From contig CANFWB010000003.1 in assembly GCA_947450605.1 (NCBI GenBank), forward strand, positions 1 through 64,000: a stretch of 64,000 bases of DNA. The letters run 5' to 3'. Below, one piece after another: positions 30,601 to 59,375 of this stretch; position 1 is the stretch's first letter, and each line of letters begins with the position of its first letter. The notes beneath the pieces were generated by a model. It was not told the origin of the DNA. It worked only from the letters and a program-made list of their open reading frames with translations, and did no database searches. The DNA is from Burkholderiaceae bacterium. Its GTDB lineage: Bacteria; Pseudomonadota; Gammaproteobacteria; Burkholderiales; Burkholderiaceae. A program made the position numbers and the translations under genes.

Positions 30601-32130
30601 TTGCAAATTAATCCCATGGATAAAGCCACCTTAGTTATTCCGGTAATTCTTTGCGGCGGATCGGGCACTCGTCTGTGGCCTTTGTCGCGCTCAGGCTTTC
30701 CAAAGCAGTTTTTGGTGCTTTCGGGCGACGATTCAAGTCAGAGCTTGTTCCAGCAGGCAATTCAGAGAATGAATGCGGTAGGGGCTGGGCAGGGTATGAA
30801 TTTGGGCTCCACCCTCATTGTTACAAACGAGGAGCACCGTTTTTTAGTCTTAGATCAATTGCGTGAATTAAGGGATGTCAGGGCAACACTGCTACTTGAG
30901 CCAGTAGGGCGAAATACCGCTCCGGCGTTAAGTTTGGCCGCCTTTGCGGCAGTGGATCTCGTAGGGGGTGCTGCCGCCACTGAAAATGACCCTATTTTAC
31001 TGATTACCCCAGCAGATCAAACGGTTAAAAACCAGACTGCATTTGTCAGGGCGTTGCGAGAATCTGTATCGGTAGTTGAGGCTGATCAATCCAAACAAAC
31101 AATTGCCATATTGGGAATTACGCCAACCGCGCCTGAAACTGGTTATGGCTATATTAAGCGACAAGGACTTCCCGGTGAGAATCAGGAATATGCGGTGGAA
31201 AAATTTGTAGAAAAGCCTGATGTAAAGACTGCGCAAAGTTATTTAGCGGATGGTAGCTACCTTTGGAATAGTGGCATGTTTGTATTGCGTGCTAGCACAT
31301 GGCTGTCTGCTTTAAAGGAATTTCGTCCGGATATTTTTAGTGTGACTGAAGCTGCATGGCTTTCTCGTAGTAGCGATCATTCTGATCGAACCCACTTTAT
31401 TCGCCCTGATTCGGAAATTTTCAAAACAGTTCCCAGTGAATCGATCGACTATGCAGTGATAGAAAAATGCCCTGGCAGCAAGTTCTCGGTAAAAATGGTT
31501 GAGCTCAGTGCCGGTTGGAGTGATCTGGGTGCCTGGGATGCTGTATGGCAGGTGGGGAAACAAGATGAGAGCGGTAACGTGATCTCGGGGGATGTCATTG
31601 TTAGCAACTCTAAAAACTCATTGATTCATTCGAGTGGCAGATTGATTAGCGCTGTCGGAGTGGAAGATCTTATTATTATTGAAACTGCTGACGCAGTTCT
31701 GGTGGCCGATCGAAAAAATAGTCAAGATGTCAAAAATGTCGTTTCTCAACTAGAGGCACAAAAGCGGGAGGAGAAAAACCTTCATCGCAAAGTTGCTCGG
31801 CCTTGGGGTTGGTATGACAGTGTAGATGAAGGTGAGCGCTTCAAGGTGAAGCGCATCCAAGTAAAGTCTGGAGCTAGCCTCTCATTGCAAATGCATCACC
31901 ACAGGGCTGAGCACTGGATTGTGGTCAAAGGCGTTGCGGAGATTACCAATGGTGATCAAGTCATCACCCTGACGGAGAATCAAAGTACCTATATTCCTCA
32001 GGGGCAAACCCATCGCTTAGCTAACCCAGGAAAGACGCCGCTGGAAATCATTGAAGTGCAGTCGGGTAGTTATCTGGGTGAAGACGATATCGTGCGTTTT
32101 GAGGATAGTTATGGACGCTCTAATTCATGA
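30601..32130 (+). CDS. manC: Mannose-1-phosphate guanylyltransferase / mannose-6-phosphate isomerase; start likely MDKATLV (~30616)
   Basis: VILCGGSGTRLWPLSRSGFPKQFL; RPWGWYDSVDEGERFKVKRI. Confidence 0.94.
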   Translation: MQINPMDKATLVIPVILCGGSGTRLWPLSRSGFPKQFLVLSGDDSSQSLFQQAIQRMNAVGAGQGMNLGSTLIVTNEEHRFLVLDQLRELRDVRATLLLEPVGRNTAPALSLAAFAAVDLVGGAAATENDPILLITPADQTVKNQTAFVRALRESVSVVEADQSKQTIAILGITPTAPETGYGYIKRQGLPGENQEYAVEKFVEKPDVKTAQSYLADGSYLWNSGMFVLRASTWLSALKEFRPDIFSVTEAAWLSRSSDHSDRTHFIRPDSEIFKTVPSESIDYAVIEKCPGSKFSVKMVELSAGWSDLGAWDAVWQVGKQDESGNVISGDVIVSNSKNSLIHSSGRLISAVGVEDLIIIETADAVLVADRKNSQDVKNVVSQLEAQKREEKNLHRKVARPWGWYDSVDEGERFKVKRIQVKSGASLSLQMHHHRAEHWIVVKGVAEITNGDQVITLTENQSTYIPQGQTHRLANPGKTPLEIIEVQSGSYLGEDDIVRFEDSYGRSNS

Positions 32131-32537
32131 GCAATATCAAGCTAGCAGTTAAAACCTCTGATACTCCAATTTGCGGTGTAAGTCGGCGGGATACTGGTAG
32201 TGAAAAGTTAAAACTTGGCCGATTAGATATTTGGAGGGATTGGGCTTGGGTGCCAGAATGTATAGAGGCGATGTTGCTTATGCTGCAAAAAAATCAGCCT
32301 CAAGATTATGTGATTACTATGGGGACAGCAATTACCCTAGAGGGGTTTGTGAAAACTGCATTTGAGCAAGCCGGCCTCACCCGGAAGGATCCCGTTGCTC
32401 AGGATTCAAATCTTTCCCAACATACCGATTTGGCTATTGGGCGTTCTCACCCTAGTACAGTGCATCAGATGTTAGCTTGGAAAGCTTCGACCCAAAGGGT
32501 TAAGGTTGTTAAAAAAATGTATCACTCTTTACAATGA
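32127..32537 (+). pseudogene. C-terminal remnant of a GDP-mannose 4,6-dehydratase-like gene
   Basis: LKLGRLDIWRDWAWVPECIEAMLLMLQKNQPQDYVITMGTAITLEGFV aligns to the C-terminal third of the 58416-59375 protein; lacks the Rossmann and YxxxK regions. Confidence 0.85.
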
Positions 32538-42133: not shown

Positions 42134-43420
42134 ATGACGTCGCTAGAACATTCCGTGCAATCCCATCCTTCTCGTGATGAGTCTGGCGGCAATAATGATG
42201 GGGCCGAAATCTCTCTCTTGGATATTGTCCGGTTTGGGATTGATTCCTGGAAGAAGCTTGCAGCCGCTGCATTGATTGGGGCTACTCTTGGAGTTGGGTG
42301 TTGGTTTTTCTTAGGGCAATACTCTGCTGAATACACTTTGCTTAATAATTCCAACACCAACACCAACACCAACACCAACACCAACACCAACACCAACACC
42401 AACACCAACACCAACACCAACACCAACACCAACACCAACACCTATGGGCTCGATTTGGTATCTTGGAAGATCATTCAAAAGAGCCTGCCTAATCTGGCGG
42501 CCCAAGTGGTGGAGGGGGGTACGGCTCCTGACGGTCAGGTGGGTCTATATCAGGCAATGGCTAACGACCAGTGGTGGCAAAAAAATGTCGTGCCTAGTTA
42601 TGCCTTATCGAAGGCTGATACCAAAGACTTGGCTGGTGTGAGTAAAGAGTTTGATGGAGCCAGCACCACAATCTTGAGCTTGACCCTCAGCGCTGGAGGC
42701 CCCAGCAACGAAAAGGCCTCAGAATCGGTCAAGGCGGCCGCTAAATTTTTACGTACTGGTGGAGCCTATTTGCAACTGCGAAACATGCTCAATGCCTATG
42801 AGGGTGATGTCATCAGTGCTGCGGCAGATATTCAGAAAAAAATTACCACGACCCAAATTGAGATGGGCTACCAACAACAGCGAGCTAAAAGCCTGGAAGA
42901 TCTCTACAAACGCTATCCTAGTAATTCAAATCAAGGGCAGCAGGTAATTGATCCTAAAGAATCCGGTGCCAAGTACCTCTCCATTACCACCCAAATCATT
43001 GCGGTGAATAATGACATCAATCAGTCCAAGGAAAATCTGCAGCGGATGCGCGATCGCTTGGCCCAGCTGGCATTAACTAAAGACTTCCTCCATGCAGCGC
43101 TTCCTTTAGCTAAAATCACTTTTGATGGCCTTGCTTTGGACGCTGAGCTACTGGCTATTGAAGCTAAGCTGCGGGCTAATTTAACTAATGATGATCCCAA
43201 ACAACAAGAGATTTTGGATCAAATTTATTCTCAACTACTCATGATTCAGTCTAGGTTCACTAAGGGTTTGGAGGCCAATACAGCGCCGACTAGTAGTGGC
43301 AAGAAGGGAATGATTAAGTTTACTGTGGGCGGTTTAGCTGGGGCGTTCTTTTTAATGCTTCTAGTGCTTCTGGGCCAGCGAGTATGGCTGAGCATTAAAA
43401 GTGACGGGATGAAGTCTTGA
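42134..43420 (+). CDS. Wzz-like polysaccharide chain-length regulator with (Asn-Thr)15 insert
   Basis: [20 protein letters not shown]1; long periplasmic coiled-coil region; C-terminal [22 protein letters not shown]; sits between WaaL-like and glycan genes. Confidence 0.78.
42353..42442 (+). repeat. Perfect hexanucleotide microsatellite (AACACC)15, in-frame
   Basis: 15 uninterrupted units counted directly; translation (NT)15. Confidence 0.98.
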
Positions 43421-43496: not shown

Positions 43497-43658
43497 TTGA
43501 AGAATAGGCATATTGGGGATGCGCTAAAGACATCGACCAATGGTTTACGAATACTGTTACAGGAGCGCGCAGCAAGATTAGAGCTTGCTCTAGTTATGGT
43601 TGCGCTGGTCGCTTTTTTGTTTTCTCGCAGTATCTATGCCTTAGTAATTAATGGTTAA
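43497..43658 (+). pseudogene. Possible N-terminal fragment of a DgkA-like diacylglycerol kinase (53 aa)
   Basis: TTG-start frame LKNRHIGDALKTSTNGLRILLQERAARLELALVMVALVAFLFSRSIYALVING*; stops where the AT-rich segment begins. Confidence 0.45.
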
Positions 43659-44601
43659 TAATGTAAAAAGAGCTGTGATATTAATATCGACTTTAGGGTT
43701 GATATATTTTACTGCCTATTCAGTTAATATCTCACAATTGAAGCCGTCATTAACGATTGAATTTTTTATTTATGCATCAATAGCGCTAATATTCCTTCTA
43801 TTTTCATACGCATTATCCTGTTTAAGATGGCTTTTATTGTTAAAGACAATAGATAAATCTCTAAAATTTTCAGATATTTTCTATATCTTCTATCTATCAA
43901 ATACTATATCAACATATATACCAGGTATGCTTTTAGGCGATTATTTTAGATATGAATTACTGAGGAAAAAAATTAGGTTAGAGGGCATCTGGAATGCGAT
44001 ATCCTATACGGTGCTAGTTGATCGCATGATTTCATTGACCTCATTAATAATTAATATATCTTTATTTTATATGATTTTTATAGAAAAAGATATATTAATA
44101 TATAATATTATATATTATATATTAATTGGAATTCTTTCAATAATTATAACTTTATATGTTATCTATATTGTTAGAATTAAAATTATTAAATTATTGTATA
44201 ATCTTGAAGGTTTTGGTGGAATAAAAATATATAATTTTCTTAGTTTTATTAACAATAATAAACTAAGAATTTTTTTCTTAATTCCATTTTCAATGTTGGT
44301 CAATTACACTGTACTTATATCTTTTTATTTTATAACTGTTGCATATGAACTAAATTTAAATTTTATCGCAAGTTCGATGTCTGTTCAACTTGCCTTTTTT
44401 GGAACCCTAATTCCTCTGTCGCCAAGCGGCCTCGGAATCTCAGAATATATTTATAGTGAAATGTATTCATTAATAACTAATAGCTTTAATAATATAATCT
44501 ATGTATATGTTGCATTTCGCCTTGTGTGCCTTATAGCCAATCTACCATCTTTTTTATATATATTTATGAATTATTTTTCAAGTAATCATCCAAAAATTTA
44601 G
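43651..44601 (+). CDS. Lysylphosphatidylglycerol synthase TM region-like (UPF0104) membrane protein
   Basis: CLRWLLLLKTIDKSLKFSDIFYIFYLSN...IPGMLLGDYFRYELLRKK; LIPLSPSGLGISEYIY. Confidence 0.75.
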   Translation: MVNNVKRAVILISTLGLIYFTAYSVNISQLKPSLTIEFFIYASIALIFLLFSYALSCLRWLLLLKTIDKSLKFSDIFYIFYLSNTISTYIPGMLLGDYFRYELLRKKIRLEGIWNAISYTVLVDRMISLTSLIINISLFYMIFIEKDILIYNIIYYILIGILSIIITLYVIYIVRIKIIKLLYNLEGFGGIKIYNFLSFINNNKLRIFFLIPFSMLVNYTVLISFYFITVAYELNLNFIASSMSVQLAFFGTLIPLSPSGLGISEYIYSEMYSLITNSFNNIIYVYVAFRLVCLIANLPSFLYIFMNYFSSNHPKI

Positions 44602-51460: not shown

Positions 51461-52563
51461 CCAGAAAGTTTCAATACTTCCTGCTTTGCGCTTATTTTAT
51501 AGCGCCACATTATTTATTTTATTATCTATTTGATATTAGAGCTATTAAGCCATTTGATATCGCAGCTTTATTCATACTAATTTCATTTATTTTCAATAGC
51601 AATTTTAAATTTAGAATTGATAAAGCCTTTTTTTATCTTGCTAGCTGGTATTTCATAAGAAGCATTATTTCTAGCTTCGAAATAGGCGCAGAGTCATTGC
51701 TTTATGGTGTCAAACTTTATGAATATTTAGTTATTTTTACGGCCATAGGACTTCAAGATAAAGTCGCTAAAAATAAATTACTTTTAATAATAATAATAAG
51801 CACGATTTTCTGGGCATCTCTAGAGTTGTTTGGTTATTCTCTAAATATAGGGTGGGGGGATAGACTGTCAGCCCAATATGGTGGACCATATGAGCTTGGT
51901 GCAATAGCTATAATAGGGGTAATTTTATTTAGAGAATCAAAGTACAGATTAATAAGTTTATTTATACTATTATTAAGTGGAGCAAAATCTTCAATATTAA
52001 GTTTATTTTCCTCTACATTAATATATAAAAAAAAATATGCGATATTAGGAATTGCTTTAATAGTAGTAGCAGGAATATTTTTTAATGAACAGTTTAGGGG
52101 TCGAGAATTTATAATAAGCACTACTGATTTACTAAGCGATAATTTATTAAAAATATATAACGATGTAAATACAACGGAAAATAAGCATGAATATGATGAA
52201 AATTGGAATTCACGAGAGGTATATTTTAAAGGCAGCAATATAGATTTAAGTACAGGATCTAGAATTTACACATATTTTCTGATAATAAAATCTATCAGTG
52301 GACTTGGATGGATATATGGAAATGGGCCTGGGTACTATTCTGCAGCTGTGGACTCATCGATACTTAGGTTGTTGGGTGAGACTGGTTTAATGGGATTGAT
52401 TCTGTTTGCGTTGTTTATGAGAAAAATATTTAGTGGTATCGGCTATCATTGGTTAACATTGGCAGTTACATTAAATATGCTCCTTGTCGACATATTTTTT
52501 TCAGCTCGTTTTTTATGTGTACTTTATCTTATCTTTATTATGAAATATGAAAATAAAAAATAA
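51457..52563 (+). CDS. Wzy-like oligosaccharide polymerase
   Basis: Multi-TM; GLGWIYGNGPGYYSAAVDSSILRLLGETGLMGLILFALFMRKI; very AT-rich. Confidence 0.65.
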   Translation: MTRKFQYFLLCAYFIAPHYLFYYLFDIRAIKPFDIAALFILISFIFNSNFKFRIDKAFFYLASWYFIRSIISSFEIGAESLLYGVKLYEYLVIFTAIGLQDKVAKNKLLLIIIISTIFWASLELFGYSLNIGWGDRLSAQYGGPYELGAIAIIGVILFRESKYRLISLFILLLSGAKSSILSLFSSTLIYKKKYAILGIALIVVAGIFFNEQFRGREFIISTTDLLSDNLLKIYNDVNTTENKHEYDENWNSREVYFKGSNIDLSTGSRIYTYFLIIKSISGLGWIYGNGPGYYSAAVDSSILRLLGETGLMGLILFALFMRKIFSGIGYHWLTLAVTLNMLLVDIFFSARFLCVLYLIFIMKYENKK

Positions 52564-54037
52564 AGCTTTGATGTTAGGAATTATTTTTTTAGTTCCATTA
52601 GCCCTATTGATAATATATGGCGAACAACCTCTCCTTGAGAGGCATGCATATAGGCAAACCCAAACGGCACTAACAACATTTTGGATAATTCAGGAAGGTT
52701 TAAGATTGGATTATCTTACTCCAGTTCTTGGATTTCCATGGAGTGTACCGCTAGAGTTCCCTATGTATCAAGTAATCGTAGCTTTATTTGTGAATATATT
52801 CTCAGTGAGTTTGGACCTGGGCGGAAGAATGGTGGGATTAATTTTTTACTATTTAATTTTAATTCCGCTATACCTGATATTAAAACCATTCGGTAAAAAA
52901 GCTATTTTTATTGGAATGGTTATGTATATAACTAGTCCACTTGAATTATTTTATTCAAAAGCCTTTTTAATAGAATCTACAGTAACTTTTTTAGCATTAA
53001 TTTCATTATATTCATACCTAAAATATTTAGATTCGAACTTAAAAAAATATCTTATTATTTTTCTTATATCAACAACGCTAGCAGGGCTTCAAAAAATTAC
53101 AACATTGTTACCGTTACTTTTAGTATATTTTTCAGATAATATTTATTTTATCTTTAAATATAAAAATTTTCCAAGAAATAGAATTGTTGTTGTATTAGGG
53201 ATTGCGTTATCATTTTTACCTAGTATTTTTTGGAGCTTATACTCCGACATAATAAAAAATACAGGCTATTTGTCATCTTACATTAGTAGTACTCAGATGA
53301 GGGAATGGATTTTTGGAACAATCCAATTTCGTTTGGATATATTATATTGGGCCAAAGTTTTTATATTTAGATTGATATTATTGGGCGGGTTAATTGTGCC
53401 TGTATCATTGATTGTCTATAGATATTTTAAAGCAAAGATAGTTTTTAACAGAATTTCATTTTTGTTTTTAATAACGAGTTTATTAGGCCCTTTAATATTT
53501 GCACCATTATACTTTGTGCATGATTATTATTATAATTCATCAATTGCGTTTATGATTTGCGCGTTGGCTATAATTTTATGTACTAATGAAGCGGAATTAA
53601 TAAATAAAAAGTTTTTTTCTATTATTTCGGCTATTTTATTTATAAACTACATTATTTATGGGTTATTTTTAAATAATTTTAATAATAAAATAGCTGACAT
53701 TGATAAAAATTCACATGAGATTGGGTTGTACTTAAAAGATAAGGTAAAGAAGGCTGATGTAATTGTAATTCTTGGCCTTGATTGGAACAGTACCATACCG
53801 TACTACTCGCAGCATTATTCATTGATGCTTCCAGATTGGATCCCGTTGGAAAATCCTGTGGTTTCTAATCCAGAAAAATATATAGATGGAAGAAATATTG
53901 GTGCTATTGTAGTTTGTCGATCTGGATTATGGCGAGAAAATTTTACAGATCAAACAGTGAGTGATTTAATGAGTAAAATTAATGGTAATTTATTTGAATA
54001 CAAATCATGTTTTATCAAGATAGGTAATAAAGAATGA
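52547..54037 (+). CDS. GT-C type (ArnT/PMT-like) membrane glycosyltransferase
   Basis: LLERHAYRQTQTALTTFWIIQEG...; polytopic; FYSKAFLIESTVTFL. Confidence 0.7.
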   Translation: MKIKNKALMLGIIFLVPLALLIIYGEQPLLERHAYRQTQTALTTFWIIQEGLRLDYLTPVLGFPWSVPLEFPMYQVIVALFVNIFSVSLDLGGRMVGLIFYYLILIPLYLILKPFGKKAIFIGMVMYITSPLELFYSKAFLIESTVTFLALISLYSYLKYLDSNLKKYLIIFLISTTLAGLQKITTLLPLLLVYFSDNIYFIFKYKNFPRNRIVVVLGIALSFLPSIFWSLYSDIIKNTGYLSSYISSTQMREWIFGTIQFRLDILYWAKVFIFRLILLGGLIVPVSLIVYRYFKAKIVFNRISFLFLITSLLGPLIFAPLYFVHDYYYNSSIAFMICALAIILCTNEAELINKKFFSIISAILFINYIIYGLFLNNFNNKIADIDKNSHEIGLYLKDKVKKADVIVILGLDWNSTIPYYSQHYSLMLPDWIPLENPVVSNPEKYIDGRNIGAIVVCRSGLWRENFTDQTVSDLMSKINGNLFEYKSCFIKIGNKE

Positions 54038-55350
54038 ATAATTTAATTGCCCTTCATAAGCTAAGAACATTTGATAAAAGTTTCTCCTTAGACGTTTCCA
54101 TACAGCGCCCAGATAGATATCGTCATATAGATAGCCTTTCTAATTTGGAGCCAATAATTGCGAGGGGCGGTGGTTTTTCATATACTCCAGCGAGTTTCGG
54201 GCATGGCTCTAAGTCAATAGACATGACTAAATTTAATAGGATTGGTGTATATGATCATGCCAATTCAACTATTCTCCTTGAGTCTGGCGTCAAACTGATA
54301 GACCTCATTAATTGGGCTGCAAAACATAAGTTGCACTTACCAGTCTTGCCAGGTCATCCTTATATCACTATTGGTGGATGTATTGCCGCTGATGCTCATG
54401 GAAAAAATCCATTTGTAGATGGTACTTTCGCGGATTATGTTGAAGAAATACTGCTATTTCACCCCTCCTATGGCTACCAAAATTTATCTCGTATCAATAA
54501 CCCTGAAATATTCAGCCTTACTTGCGGAGGTTATGGGTTAACTGGAATTATTATTAGTACAAAATTGAGACTTTTAAAGCTTCCATCCTATTATGTTAAA
54601 ACCGTATCAACTGGGATTGCTTCTCTGTATGAGGCTATTGATAAGCTAACCACTGCCAGCGGCATGTCTGCTTATAGTTGGCATGACGCAACCAAGGGAA
54701 GTAATTTCGGTAAAGGGCTATTTTTTTCCAGTCAATGGGATGACGATAAAATTCCAACAGAATTTACGCCCTATTTATACAAATTAAACTCAACAATAAA
54801 AGATCTACCATTCTCGGCTTGGAATAAAAGTTCCACCTCAATAGTCAATTATATTTATAATAGAGTTAATTGCGGTAAAACTACTAGTATCGAATATATT
54901 AAATCTTGTTTTCCTCTGATAAACAATAGCTTCTATTATTATTTTTATGGAAAATTGGGGGTGAGAGAGTATCAGTTATTGATACAAGATCAGTTCATAA
55001 TAAAGTTTATTGATTATTTTTACGACCTTCAGAAAAATAATAATTTTCCTGGCGTAATGATTTCCATTAAAAAATTTAAGGGAAATCAGCATTCATTAAG
55101 CCCATCCGGAACTGGTTATATGATTTCCTTTGGTGCCTACGTAAATAAAGACACTTTGTGTGTATTCAGTAAGCTGGATGAAATGATGCTTGCTTTTAAA
55201 GGGCAGCCATACATCGTAAAAGATTCTAGGCTGCCATATGAGATTGCCATTAAAAGCATCAAAAATTATGATTCATTTCGAAATAATTTGATTAAGTATG
55301 ACCCTTTAAGGCTTTTAAGATCAGAGTTATCAGATAGGCTCAAGATATGA
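54034..55350 (+). CDS. FAD-binding oxidoreductase, DprE1-like (decaprenylphosphoryl-beta-D-ribofuranose 2'-oxidase family)
   Basis: ARGGGFSYTPASFGHGSKSIDMTKFN; PVLPGHPYITIGGCIAADAHGKN; GGYGLTGIIISTKLRLLKLP; C-terminal KDSR...DPLRLLRSELSDRL. Confidence 0.85.
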   Translation: MNNLIALHKLRTFDKSFSLDVSIQRPDRYRHIDSLSNLEPIIARGGGFSYTPASFGHGSKSIDMTKFNRIGVYDHANSTILLESGVKLIDLINWAAKHKLHLPVLPGHPYITIGGCIAADAHGKNPFVDGTFADYVEEILLFHPSYGYQNLSRINNPEIFSLTCGGYGLTGIIISTKLRLLKLPSYYVKTVSTGIASLYEAIDKLTTASGMSAYSWHDATKGSNFGKGLFFSSQWDDDKIPTEFTPYLYKLNSTIKDLPFSAWNKSSTSIVNYIYNRVNCGKTTSIEYIKSCFPLINNSFYYYFYGKLGVREYQLLIQDQFIIKFIDYFYDLQKNNNFPGVMISIKKFKGNQHSLSPSGTGYMISFGAYVNKDTLCVFSKLDEMMLAFKGQPYIVKDSRLPYEIAIKSIKNYDSFRNNLIKYDPLRLLRSELSDRLKI

Positions 55351-56075
55351 CTTTTATTATCGTCGGTGCATCCGCCGGTCTTGGTCGATCCTTGTCTGAA
55401 ACATATGCTGCTAATGGATATGATTTGATATTGATTTCAAGTGATTCTAGAGATCTTATGGCTCTTAGGAATCACTTAATTAGCTGCTACGGGGTGCAGA
55501 TATCCATCTGTGAGATTGACTTTTTATCGTCAACAATAGATTTTAATTTAATCGATGCTGAATTGATAAAATATAGCCCTCTTATGGGAATATTAGCTCC
55601 TATAGGACTTGTAAGTGACTCCGATATTGTTGGATTAAATAGTTCATTAATGAATGATATTTTAAGAATTAACTTCATATCTCCAGTTACGTTAATAAAC
55701 TACTATCTTCCAGCAATAAAAGCTAATGGGGGGAATATAATAGGTTTTGGTAGCATTGCTTCAGCTAGGGGCCGCCAGTCAAATATTGCTTATGCATCTG
55801 CCAAGGCAGCCCTTCAAACCTATTTTGAAGGGCTGCGTTTTGAGTCCTATAAATATAATTTCTTTGTTCAATTTTATACACTCGGCTACATGGACACTAA
55901 TCTGGCATTTTCAAAAAAACTACTTTTTCCAGTTGAAAGCACTTCAATAATTTCACAAGATGTTCTAAAAAATATGAGTGTGTCTAGCTTTTATTTCCTA
56001 CCAAGATTTTGGAAGCCAATATTTTATATTGTAAGATTTTTGCCCTGGAGTCTATTTAAAAGGATTTCTTTTTAA
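55347..56075 (+). CDS. SDR-family oxidoreductase, DprE2-like
   Basis: IIVGASAGLGRSLSETYAANGYDLILISSD; YASAKAALQTYFEGLRFE; overlaps the DprE1-like gene. Confidence 0.82.
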   Translation: MTFIIVGASAGLGRSLSETYAANGYDLILISSDSRDLMALRNHLISCYGVQISICEIDFLSSTIDFNLIDAELIKYSPLMGILAPIGLVSDSDIVGLNSSLMNDILRINFISPVTLINYYLPAIKANGGNIIGFGSIASARGRQSNIAYASAKAALQTYFEGLRFESYKYNFFVQFYTLGYMDTNLAFSKKLLFPVESTSIISQDVLKNMSVSSFYFLPRFWKPIFYIVRFLPWSLFKRISF

Positions 56076-56836
56076 TGATAATGAAACCTAACGTGAGCTT
56101 ATTTTTTCCTGCCTACAATGATGAGCATACATTACCAAATATTGTTGATCGATCGATTTCTCTTTTAAATGAAATTGCGAACGAATACGAAATAATAATA
56201 GTAAATGATTGCTCTCCGGATAATTCTGGAAAGGTTGCTGATGTTATTGCGGCAAGTAATTCCAAGGTAAAGGTAATACATCACGCTGTTAACATGGGTT
56301 ATGGCGGCGCCTTAAAAACGGGAGTTGCCAATTCTAAATATGAATGGATATGCATGGTTGACGGCGACAATGAATATGATGTGTACGAGTTAAAGAAGAT
56401 GCTTGCGGTGAGAGACTACTACCAATTAATCATTGGATTTCGCTATAAAAAACTTTATTCTACAAAAAGAATTTTTATTTCCTATATTTATAATCAATGC
56501 TTGCGATTGCTGTTTAAAAGTCCATTTCGCGATGTTTCTACTGGCATTAGGGTAATGCATCACTCAATTATCAATCAAATTAATATTACATCTAACAGTC
56601 CTTTTGTCGGGGCAGAACTCGCTCTAAAGGCTATGTTGAGGGGGATTCCTGTGGGTGAGGTGGGTATTCAAACTTTCCCAAGAATTTTTGGTAGCGGTTC
56701 CGCTACTAGTTTAAAAAATATCAGGCTTACTATTTCGGATGTTTTTAGAGTTAGGAAAGAGATATTTTCGGACTCTTACGATCTTCCATCCGGAAGAGTA
56801 AGACATATAAATGAGGAAATTTATAAAAAGCTATGA
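56075..56836 (+). CDS. GT2, polyprenyl/dolichyl-phosphate sugar synthase-like
   Basis: SLFFPAYNDEHTLPNIVDRSISLL; EIIIVNDCSPDNSGKVAD; MVDGDNEYDVYELKKM. Confidence 0.85.
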   Translation: MIMKPNVSLFFPAYNDEHTLPNIVDRSISLLNEIANEYEIIIVNDCSPDNSGKVADVIAASNSKVKVIHHAVNMGYGGALKTGVANSKYEWICMVDGDNEYDVYELKKMLAVRDYYQLIIGFRYKKLYSTKRIFISYIYNQCLRLLFKSPFRDVSTGIRVMHHSIINQINITSNSPFVGAELALKAMLRGIPVGEVGIQTFPRIFGSGSATSLKNIRLTISDVFRVRKEIFSDSYDLPSGRVRHINEEIYKKL

Positions 56837-57492
56837 GTTATTTGTCTAATCTATATAGAGTGCGCTTTGGCGAGGATGATATTAAGCGTAAAGAGAAGGT
56901 CTGGAAAGTGTTGTGTGAGCAGTTCTTTCAAAAATTTATACCCGAAAATGCAACGGTTTTGGATATTGCCTCTGGGTATGGTGAATTCAGTAGATATATT
57001 GTCGCTTCAAAAAAGATTGCAATTGATTTGAATGAGGAGTCAAGACTTTTTATTGATAAGGGTACTGATTTTTATTTAACAAGTGCGGATAATTTGAATA
57101 TGATTCCAGATGGTGCCATTGATGTTTGCTTTAGTAGTAATTTCTTTGAGCACTTACCTAGCAAGGATGCCATGAATAATGTCCTATTGGAGGCTAAGAG
57201 GGTACTAAAGATAGGAGGTTTATATATTTCAATGCAACCAAATATCAGGTATGAGCCAGGAAAATATTGGGATTACTATGACCATATTCTTCCGCTATCC
57301 CACATGTCTTGTAGGGAAGCATTTTTGAATTCCGGTTTTGAAGTGGTAGCTCTTTATGATAAGTTCATTCCGTTTTCCACTTCAAGTAAACTTCCTCAGC
57401 ACCCCTTGTTAGTCAAAATTTATTTGAAAATACGACCGCTGTGGAGAATCTTTGGTGGTCAATTTTTGTTAGTTGCTAGAAAAATAAAATAA
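56833..57492 (+). CDS. Class I SAM-dependent methyltransferase
   Basis: TVLDIASGYGEFSRYIVASKKIAIDLNEE; FSSNFFEHLPSKDAM. Confidence 0.82.
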   Translation: MSYLSNLYRVRFGEDDIKRKEKVWKVLCEQFFQKFIPENATVLDIASGYGEFSRYIVASKKIAIDLNEESRLFIDKGTDFYLTSADNLNMIPDGAIDVCFSSNFFEHLPSKDAMNNVLLEAKRVLKIGGLYISMQPNIRYEPGKYWDYYDHILPLSHMSCREAFLNSGFEVVALYDKFIPFSTSSKLPQHPLLVKIYLKIRPLWRIFGGQFLLVARKIK

Positions 57493-57495
57493 CTA

Positions 57496-58416
57496 ATGAG
57501 TATTAACTATTCGATTGCAATACCAACTTATAATGCTGGCGATGGTTGGATTGACTGCCTTAAATCCATTCAACTGCAGTCCATAAGTCCTCGGCATGTT
57601 TTGGTTATAGACAGCAACTCTTCTGATTCAACGTGCCAAAAAGCGGAGGAGATGGGGTGTAAACTCTTGCATACGAATCCAAAAGACTTTAATCATGGGC
57701 GCATTCGAAATGTATGTATTAATTATTTGAGCGATTCAGAATTCATAGTTTTCCTGACTCAAGATGCAGTTCTCTCCTCAGGAACATCTGTTTCACTCTT
57801 GCTAAGTACTTTTTCAGATCCGGAAATTGGAATGGCATACGGGCGCCAATTACCTCGCTTGACTACTAAACCTATTGGGGCCCATGCAAGGCTATTTAAT
57901 TATCCAGCCAGCTCTGAAATTAGGTCCATTGATGATGCCAAAAGACTAGGCATAAAAACAGCTTTTGTATCAAACTCATATGCTGCATATAGAAGAACTG
58001 CTATTGAGCAAATTGGAGGATTTCCTTCGAATGTCATACTAAGCGAAGATACGTATGTAGCTGGCAAAATGCTGTTGGCAGACTGGAAAATATCTTATGT
58101 AGCCAATTCAGCCGTGTTTCACGCGCACGACTACACTTATTTCTCTGAGTTTAAGCGTTATTTTGATACCGGAGTATTTCATGGGCGGGAAAGTTGGATT
58201 ACTCATGCTTTTGGGAGGTCAGAAAATGAGGGCTTTAAATTTATTAAATCGGAGTTTAGGTATTTAATGAAACATTCTCCATTTTTAATTCCCTCATCTT
58301 TTTTTAGGACCTTTATTAAATATCTTGGTTATAAGCTTGGGCAGCATGAGAGCATCCTTCCAAGAAGGATTAAGGTTTTATTTAGCATGCATAAAAATTT
58401 CTGGAGATCAAGCTGA
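57496..58416 (+). CDS. GT2, rhamnosyltransferase-like
   Basis: SIAIPTYNAGDGWIDCLKSIQLQSISPRHVLVIDSNSSDST; FLTQDAVLSS; GRQLPR. Confidence 0.85.
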   Translation: MSINYSIAIPTYNAGDGWIDCLKSIQLQSISPRHVLVIDSNSSDSTCQKAEEMGCKLLHTNPKDFNHGRIRNVCINYLSDSEFIVFLTQDAVLSSGTSVSLLLSTFSDPEIGMAYGRQLPRLTTKPIGAHARLFNYPASSEIRSIDDAKRLGIKTAFVSNSYAAYRRTAIEQIGGFPSNVILSEDTYVAGKMLLADWKISYVANSAVFHAHDYTYFSEFKRYFDTGVFHGRESWITHAFGRSENEGFKFIKSEFRYLMKHSPFLIPSSFFRTFIKYLGYKLGQHESILPRRIKVLFSMHKNFWRSS

Positions 58417-59375
58417 TGAGAAGGGCTCTGATTATTGGAGTCAATGGTCAGGATGGCGCATACCTCGCTAAATTTCTGCTTGAAAAAGGCTATGAAGTTA
58501 TAGGTACCTCGCGTGATGCCACAGTATCATCTTTTGCGAATCTCACAAAATTAGGGGTCCAAGCGAGATTGCAGATTGTTTCAATGGCATTAAATGATTT
58601 TCGAAGTGTTTTGGAGGTAATTAAAAAATTTACGCCTGATGAAATTTATAATTTAGCTGGTCAAACATCCGTTGGACTATCCTTCGAGCAGCCAGTTGAG
58701 ACAATGGAAAGCATTACTTTTGGAACTTTAAATATTCTTGAGGCAATTCGTTTTATTGATAGCCCTATACATTTTTATAACGCCGGATCAAGCGAATGTT
58801 TCGGTGATACTAAGAATCTGCCTGCAAGCGAAAGTACTCCTTTCTCGCCAAGAAGTCCATATGCAGTAGCCAAAACCGCCGCATATGGGTTGGTAAATAA
58901 TTATCGTGAATCATATGGGTTATTTGCATGTACCGGTATTCTGTTTAATCATGAATCTCCACTAAGGCCAAAGAGATTTGTAACTCAAAAAATTATTCAG
59001 GCTGCCTGGCATATCTCTAAAAATTTAGATACGAAATTATCACTTGGGAATATTTCAATTTATCGTGATTGGGGCTGGGCCCCAGAATATATTGAGGCTA
59101 TGTGGCTTATGTTGCAGCGGGAAAGGCCCGAGGACTTTGTCATTGCTACAGGAAAATCTGTTTCTCTGGAATATTTTATTGAGAAAGCTTTTTCCTATCA
59201 TGGCTTATCTTGGAAAAATCATGTGCTGATTGATTCATCTTTTTTGCGACCATCAGATATTGAATATGGAGCGGCTGATCCACGTAAGGCTGAATTTATT
59301 TTAGGCTGGAAGGCTAAATATGATGTAGATGACGTTATTCGAATGATGAGTACGATTACTCAAGATGCTGAGTAG
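58416..59375 (+). CDS. GDP-mannose 4,6-dehydratase-like NAD-dependent epimerase/dehydratase (short second paralogue)
   Basis: IIGVNGQDGAYLAKFLLEKGYEVIGTSRD; SPYAVAKTAAYGLVNNYRESYG; RDWGWAPEYIEAMWLMLQ. Confidence 0.85.
   Translation: MRRALIIGVNGQDGAYLAKFLLEKGYEVIGTSRDATVSSFANLTKLGVQARLQIVSMALNDFRSVLEVIKKFTPDEIYNLAGQTSVGLSFEQPVETMESITFGTLNILEAIRFIDSPIHFYNAGSSECFGDTKNLPASESTPFSPRSPYAVAKTAAYGLVNNYRESYGLFACTGILFNHESPLRPKRFVTQKIIQAAWHISKNLDTKLSLGNISIYRDWGWAPEYIEAMWLMLQRERPEDFVIATGKSVSLEYFIEKAFSYHGLSWKNHVLIDSSFLRPSDIEYGAADPRKAEFILGWKAKYDVDDVIRMMSTITQDAE

Follow-up and report, generated by a model that had tools for sequence, protein, structure and literature searches.

DprE1 and DprE2, together a leading tuberculosis drug target, are to our knowledge known only for converting ribose to arabinose on a lipid, and the locus described here raises the question of whether a pair of this kind must act on that sugar. 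The locus lies in the first 64,000 nucleotides (hereafter the window) of contig CANFWB010000003.1 (assembly GCA_947450605.1; our contig C3) from a freshwater bacterium of the Burkholderiaceae, whose genome of 1.95 Mb is 82% complete; gene content and size suggest a Polynucleobacter-like betaproteobacterium. Here a single translationally coupled operon (52547-57492, + strand) encodes a GT-C glycosyltransferase, a DprE1-like oxidase (E1), a DprE2-like reductase (E2), a GT2 glycosyltransferase (hereafter GT2) and a methyltransferase (MT), with overlaps of 4 nt (GT-C/E1), 4 nt (E1/E2), 1 nt (E2/GT2) and 4 nt (GT2/MT). It sits inside a low-GC surface-glycan locus (GC 0.36 at 42-60 kb vs 0.47 at 1-28 kb). 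A sequence-only reading of the window had recognized the DprE1/DprE2-like pair with its GT-C and DPM1-like GT2 – motifs and coordinates proved correct – and had proposed as product either a lipid-linked furanose resembling D-arabinofuranose or another 2'-epimerized sugar. On balance, and with modest confidence, we read the operon as a lipid-linked sugar epimerization cassette, in which GT2 would load the sugar, E1/E2 would epimerize it on the lipid, and GT-C would transfer it outside.

The oxidase and its partners

Against the DprE1 model NF053785, E1 aligns over its full length (profile positions 38-448 of 449; 175 bits, E 2e-51). The score is far under the model's 500-bit cut-off, but those of canonical congeners (325-426 bits) are below it too, so that the cut-off alone does not discriminate. 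An AlphaFold model of E1 (built with 30 relatives; pLDDT 92.7) gave mycobacterial DprE1 as every one of its top 48 PDB fold matches, with about 23-25% identity over the fold alignment; the solved structures nearest by sequence are also mycobacterial DprE1. The active site, inspection of which had been recommended in the sequence-only reading, carries the catalytic set of Mycobacterium tuberculosis DprE1: by alignment H122, K124, Q314, K346 and K396 correspond to H132, K134, Q336, K367 and K418, and H132, G133, K134, Q336, K367 and K418 (M. tuberculosis numbering) are invariant across both groups of E1 in the 89-sequence alignment described below. The window's E1 differs from M. tuberculosis DprE1 at R58, T118, D318, W323 and Q334.

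E2 is an adh_short SDR in which YxxxK is intact (by alignment); its match to the DprE2 model NF053786 (40 bits) is under the 250-bit cut-off, and an E2-type gene adjoins E1 in almost all loci. GT2 has a GT-A fold closest to dolichyl-P-mannose synthase (DPMS), ArnC and GtrB, with DxD present and without C-terminal membrane helices. Polyprenyl-P-sugar synthases, namely ArnC, dolichyl-P-mannose synthase and GtrB, make up the top 25 PDB fold matches of its model; GT2 is a predicted enzyme of this kind, which would pass sugar from a nucleotide to polyprenyl phosphate. GT-C matches PMT_2 (30 bits over the Pfam cut-off). The likeness to the mycobacterial system for decaprenyl-P-arabinose – DprE1/DprE2 with the DPPR synthase Rv3806c – embraces fold, FAD, catalytic residues, an adjacent oxidase/reductase pair and downstream GT-C logic; the window differs in having no DPPR synthase, with GT2 in its place.

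Phylogeny and gene linkage of the pair

E1 relatives were drawn from a genus sample (151 genomes), from order and phylum samples, and from 84,980 species genomes scanned by means of a clade alignment, which gave 53 loci. A protein-only scan of genome contigs with E1 gave no match, and a plasmid search gave, among the matches listed, only canonical-range identity (26-29%), mostly from Rhizobium. In a tree of 89 proteins a single branch (bootstrap 100, SH-aLRT 100) splits 40 canonical-range proteins, including M. tuberculosis DprE1, from 49 window-type proteins, including that of the window. The phylogeny suggested as a check by the sequence-only reading therefore places the window outside the DPPR-linked clade: E1 has the DprE1 fold and catalytic set, yet falls outside the DPPR-linked DprE1 family. 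Within the genus sample, canonical-range DprE1 occurs in 8 of 151 genomes and the divergent kind only in the window's own. The closest relatives (support 100/98) are proteins from Halioglobus, Gallionella and Schlegelella plus two further gammaproteobacterial proteins; all keep the order E1-E2-GT2-MT, and in each the gene just ahead of E1 encodes an LPG_synthase_TM-like membrane protein. Two occurrences may reflect contamination: an E1/E2 pair in a thaumarchaeote genome (L168), and GT2-E1-E2 in two bacteria of the candidate phyla radiation (CPR; L162, L188).

Loci were compared in three classes: 39 canonical, 26 GT2-type (the window included) and 25 in which E1 is linked to a Na/H exchanger. 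NF008978 retrieved 26 DPPR synthases, from which we built a profile; by this profile a DPPR synthase was detected in the examined locus in 36/39 canonical cases vs 0/26 GT2-type (Fisher 4e-15) and 0/25 Na/H-exchanger-linked cases, while a GT2 lies within 2.6 kb of E1 in 2/39 canonical vs 22/26 GT2-type loci (Fisher 3e-11); because the rows are related, these P values are descriptive. Across many lineages, DPPR synthase and GT2 are thus swapped beside the pair. The canonical exceptions are L094 and L108, with the DPPR synthase on a different contig, and L104, a DprE1/E2 pair in a genome (G552) that gave no DPPR synthase match at all; in L181 a DPPR synthase lies ~12 kb off, beyond the examined stretch.

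The window's GT2 is 47-66% identical to GT2s adjoining E1/E2 in nine other loci. Of 399 genomes from the phylum, 2 have this type at E<=1e-40, each with window-type E1/E2 alongside; at E<=1e-30 it occurs in 1 of the 151 genus-sample genomes, the window's own. For upstream GT2s of Nitrospira, Bradyrhizobium, Bryobacterales, Obscuribacterales and Magnetococcales loci, matches to the ArnC and PgfS models cover most of the length, as does the AglJ match of the GT2 in an Uhrbacteria locus. MT occupies the equivalent position in L142-L146, L155 and L161, and is also present in L075.

The 64-kb window holds no DPPR synthase, in agreement with the sequence-only reading, which had seen no UbiA-type phosphoribosyltransferase there. 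Its suggestion that one be sought elsewhere in the genome turned up only two UbiA-family proteins, whose gene neighborhoods agree with roles as UbiA and as CtaB, the haem O synthase; the DPPR synthase model found no match in this genome, which is 82% complete. Genome-wide (E<=1e-10), 17 of the 26 GT2-type genomes, the window's included, gave no match, among them two single-contig genomes (G548 and G172, 99% complete) and the isolates Schlegelella koreensis and Bradyrhizobium Ai1a-2; the pair is therefore retained in genomes that gave no DPPR synthase match. In one further genome the sole match scores 60 bits, and in Gallionella G911 the DPPR synthase stands beside that genome's own canonical pair. 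Absence of DPPR synthase as a universal GT2-type trait was dropped, given the orphan genes described below.

Candidate substrates

In the cassette that we favor, GT2 would move a sugar, probably a hexose, from its nucleotide to polyprenyl phosphate. By analogy with DprE1/DprE2 chemistry, E1 with FAD would then oxidize a ring hydroxyl, probably at C2, and E2 with NAD(P)H would reduce the ketone from the other face to leave a lipid-bound epimer. The flippase-like membrane protein may export the lipid-linked sugar, which GT-C would then attach to a surface glycan; decoration of sugar or glycan would fall to the methyltransferase. The data establish gene content, homology, folds and linkage; each of these catalytic steps is one that we infer.

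Several observations weigh against this reading. The identity of the sugar and the position epimerized rest on inference, and the five closest cassettes (L142-L146) have no obvious nucleotide-sugar genes that would name the sugar. The completeness of the window's genome (82%) limits what the missing DPPR synthase can mean, and 7 of the 26 GT2-type genomes hold an orphan DPPR-synthase-like gene. A GT-C homologue (E<=1e-20) occurs in 1 of the 150 other congeneric genomes, within a canonical DprE1/DPPR-synthase locus. A further challenge comes from the Na/H-exchanger-linked subclade, sister to the GT2-type, in which the order Na/H exchanger (with TrkA_N)-E1-E2 is kept in L077, L152, L157 and about 20 other Lysobacterales loci. 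An unlinked DPPR synthase is present in 18 of 18 genomes with such an E1, all of one gammaproteobacterial family, vs 4 of 77 genomes of that family without any E1, although the 18 come from two genera and shared ancestry is a confounder. This subclade probably works on ribose in trans, and it has Q334E, Y415N, T118H and W323Y in common with many or all GT2-type proteins.

These points bear on the alternative of a ribose route, in which a DPPR synthase encoded elsewhere in the genome would supply polyprenyl-P-ribose in trans, the pair would convert it to polyprenyl-P-D-arabinofuranose, and GT2 would have a separate job. Canonical DPPR-synthase/DprE1 loci do exist in congeneric genomes, and Y393 of the window's E1 retains the canonical state of M. 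tuberculosis Y415. Against this stand the 17 genomes in which no DPPR synthase was found, the placement of the Gallionella gene with its own canonical pair, and the recurrence of window-type GT2 beside E1/E2. We regard this alternative as unlikely. With GT2 as the loading enzyme in the reading that we prefer, D-arabinofuranose is an unlikely product here; that half of the proposal in the sequence-only reading is disfavored by the position of E1 outside the DPPR-linked clade, the lack of a DPPR synthase in the 82% complete genome and GT2 in its place in relatives, and the other half, a different 2'-epimerized sugar, remains plausible and is the better one.

The residues around the conserved core (Q334E, W323Y/F, T118H/Y, D318 lost) could be taken to favor a second alternative, in which the pair acts on a GT2-made lipid-P-sugar at C3 or C4, or yields a keto- or deoxy-sugar in place of a C2 epimer. 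Gene linkage predicted by this alternative is identical to that of C2 epimerization; however, we know of no DprE1 relative that acts off C2, and retention of E2 argues for net epimerization, so we give it as little credence as the arabinofuranose route. The argument that pocket changes (Q334E, Y415N, T118H/Y) prove a new substrate was dropped, since the Na/H-linked subclade, with its DPPR synthase, has them: changes common to both subclades mark the clade, and the sugar cannot be read from residue changes alone. The D318 position is N in 23 of 23 Na/H-linked proteins and unconstrained in the GT2-type.

In favor of the cassette as we read it, CDP-glucose and/or C-methyltransferase genes accompany the pair in eight GT2-type loci (L148, L150, L151, L156, L159, L162, L188 and L072), with curated cut-offs passed by RfbF (L159, L072) and RfbG (L151). 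CDP-sugar genes adjoining E1/E2 in some loci would also suit a third alternative, that the pair works ahead of GT2 or independently of it, with a nucleotide sugar or a diphosphate-linked glycan as substrate. The DprE1 fold, with its lipid-P-sugar precedent, speaks against it, as does linkage to polyprenyl-P transferases and to no single nucleotide-sugar pathway; we consider it the least probable of the three. In L073/L074 (Magnetococcales) and L147 (Nitrospira) a B12-dependent radical S-adenosylmethionine (SAM) gene adjoins E1/E2, a hint of unusual C-methylated or rearranged sugars.

The surrounding locus and known systems

The flippase-like protein is not adjacent to E1 in the window; in L142-L146 it immediately precedes E1. 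The congeneric GT-C homologue (L089:15052-17826) forms part of a 924-aa protein, of which it makes up the C-terminal half and an acyltransferase (Acyl_transf_3) the N-terminal half. Elsewhere in the window, a chain-length-regulator-like ORF (42134-43420) contains a perfect in-frame (CCAACA)15 array (42351-42442), giving a long Thr-Asn repeat, and 32127-32537 encodes a C-terminal piece (profile 203-332) of a protein resembling GDP-mannose 4,6-dehydratase; it is probably a remnant, and an intact relative lies at 58416-59375.

Table 1. Genes of the putative cassette and its candidate exporter in the window.
Feature	Coordinates	Strand	Basis and predicted role
GT-C membrane glycosyltransferase (PMT_2)	52547..54037	+	Pfam PMT_2, overlap with E1; predicted user of the finished lipid-P-sugar outside the cytoplasm
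E1, FAD oxidase resembling DprE1, from a deep sister clade of the canonical enzyme	54034..55350	+	NF053785, residues, fold, tree
E2, DprE2-like SDR reductase	55347..56075	+	adh_short, weak DprE2 match, YxxxK, adjacency to E1
GT2, DPM1/ArnC/GtrB-like polyprenyl-P-sugar synthase, predicted sugar loader	56075..56836	+	GT2s of relatives, fold
SAM methyltransferase (MT), conserved cassette member	56833..57492	+	Methyltransf_11
LPG_synthase_TM/flippase-like membrane protein, candidate exporter	43651..44601	+	PF03706; position in relatives

Two sets of known systems resemble parts of the cassette. The closest to have been published are the three-component pentofuranose systems (PPPRS, flippase and GT-C) of Gram-negative bacteria, as in Citrobacter youngae O1/O2 and the arabinofuranose-bearing pilin of P. 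aeruginosa; there, a lipid-P sugar is likewise made inside, epimerized on the lipid, exported and used by a GT-C; these systems start from phosphoribosyl pyrophosphate with a UbiA-type PPPRS (PMC11127046), whereas the window has no PPPRS/DPPRS. GtrA/GtrB/Gtr(GT-C) O-antigen glucosylation, ArnC and DPM1-type enzymes share the use of a GT2 to make polyprenyl-P-sugar for a GT-C, but are not known to include an oxidase/reductase epimerase pair (see also PMC11127046). PPPRS has no similarity to GtrB-type enzymes, and no other epimerase is known in O-antigen side-chain systems (PMC11127046). Since the searches for new systems in that work used the PPPRS protein as probe (PMC11127046), GT2-linked loci would have been missed; our searches of the open-access literature turned up no earlier account of a DprE1/DprE2 pair linked to a GT2.

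Together these data suggest that the same two-step DprE1/DprE2 chemistry acts on other lipid-bound sugars in many bacteria. A broader proposal, to which we give a little less than even weight, is a second widespread class of on-lipid epimerization, in which a DprE1/DprE2-type pair would invert at C2 the polyprenyl-P-hexoses made by a GT2, 6-deoxy and C-methyl sugars of CDP origin among them, supplying surface-glycan sugars that no nucleotide-sugar epimerase makes; it would be spread over Pseudomonadota (including Bradyrhizobium), Nitrospirota, Acidobacteriota, Bacteroidota and CPR bacteria, and one thaumarchaeote genome has the pair as well. If the cassette is as we read it, a deep sister group tied to hexose-type loaders would show on-lipid epimerization to be a general route to unusual sugars, and would help to pin down the active-site residues that determine the substrate. 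It would also carry a warning: annotation as "DprE1/DprE2" alone would be no predictor of arabinofuranose.

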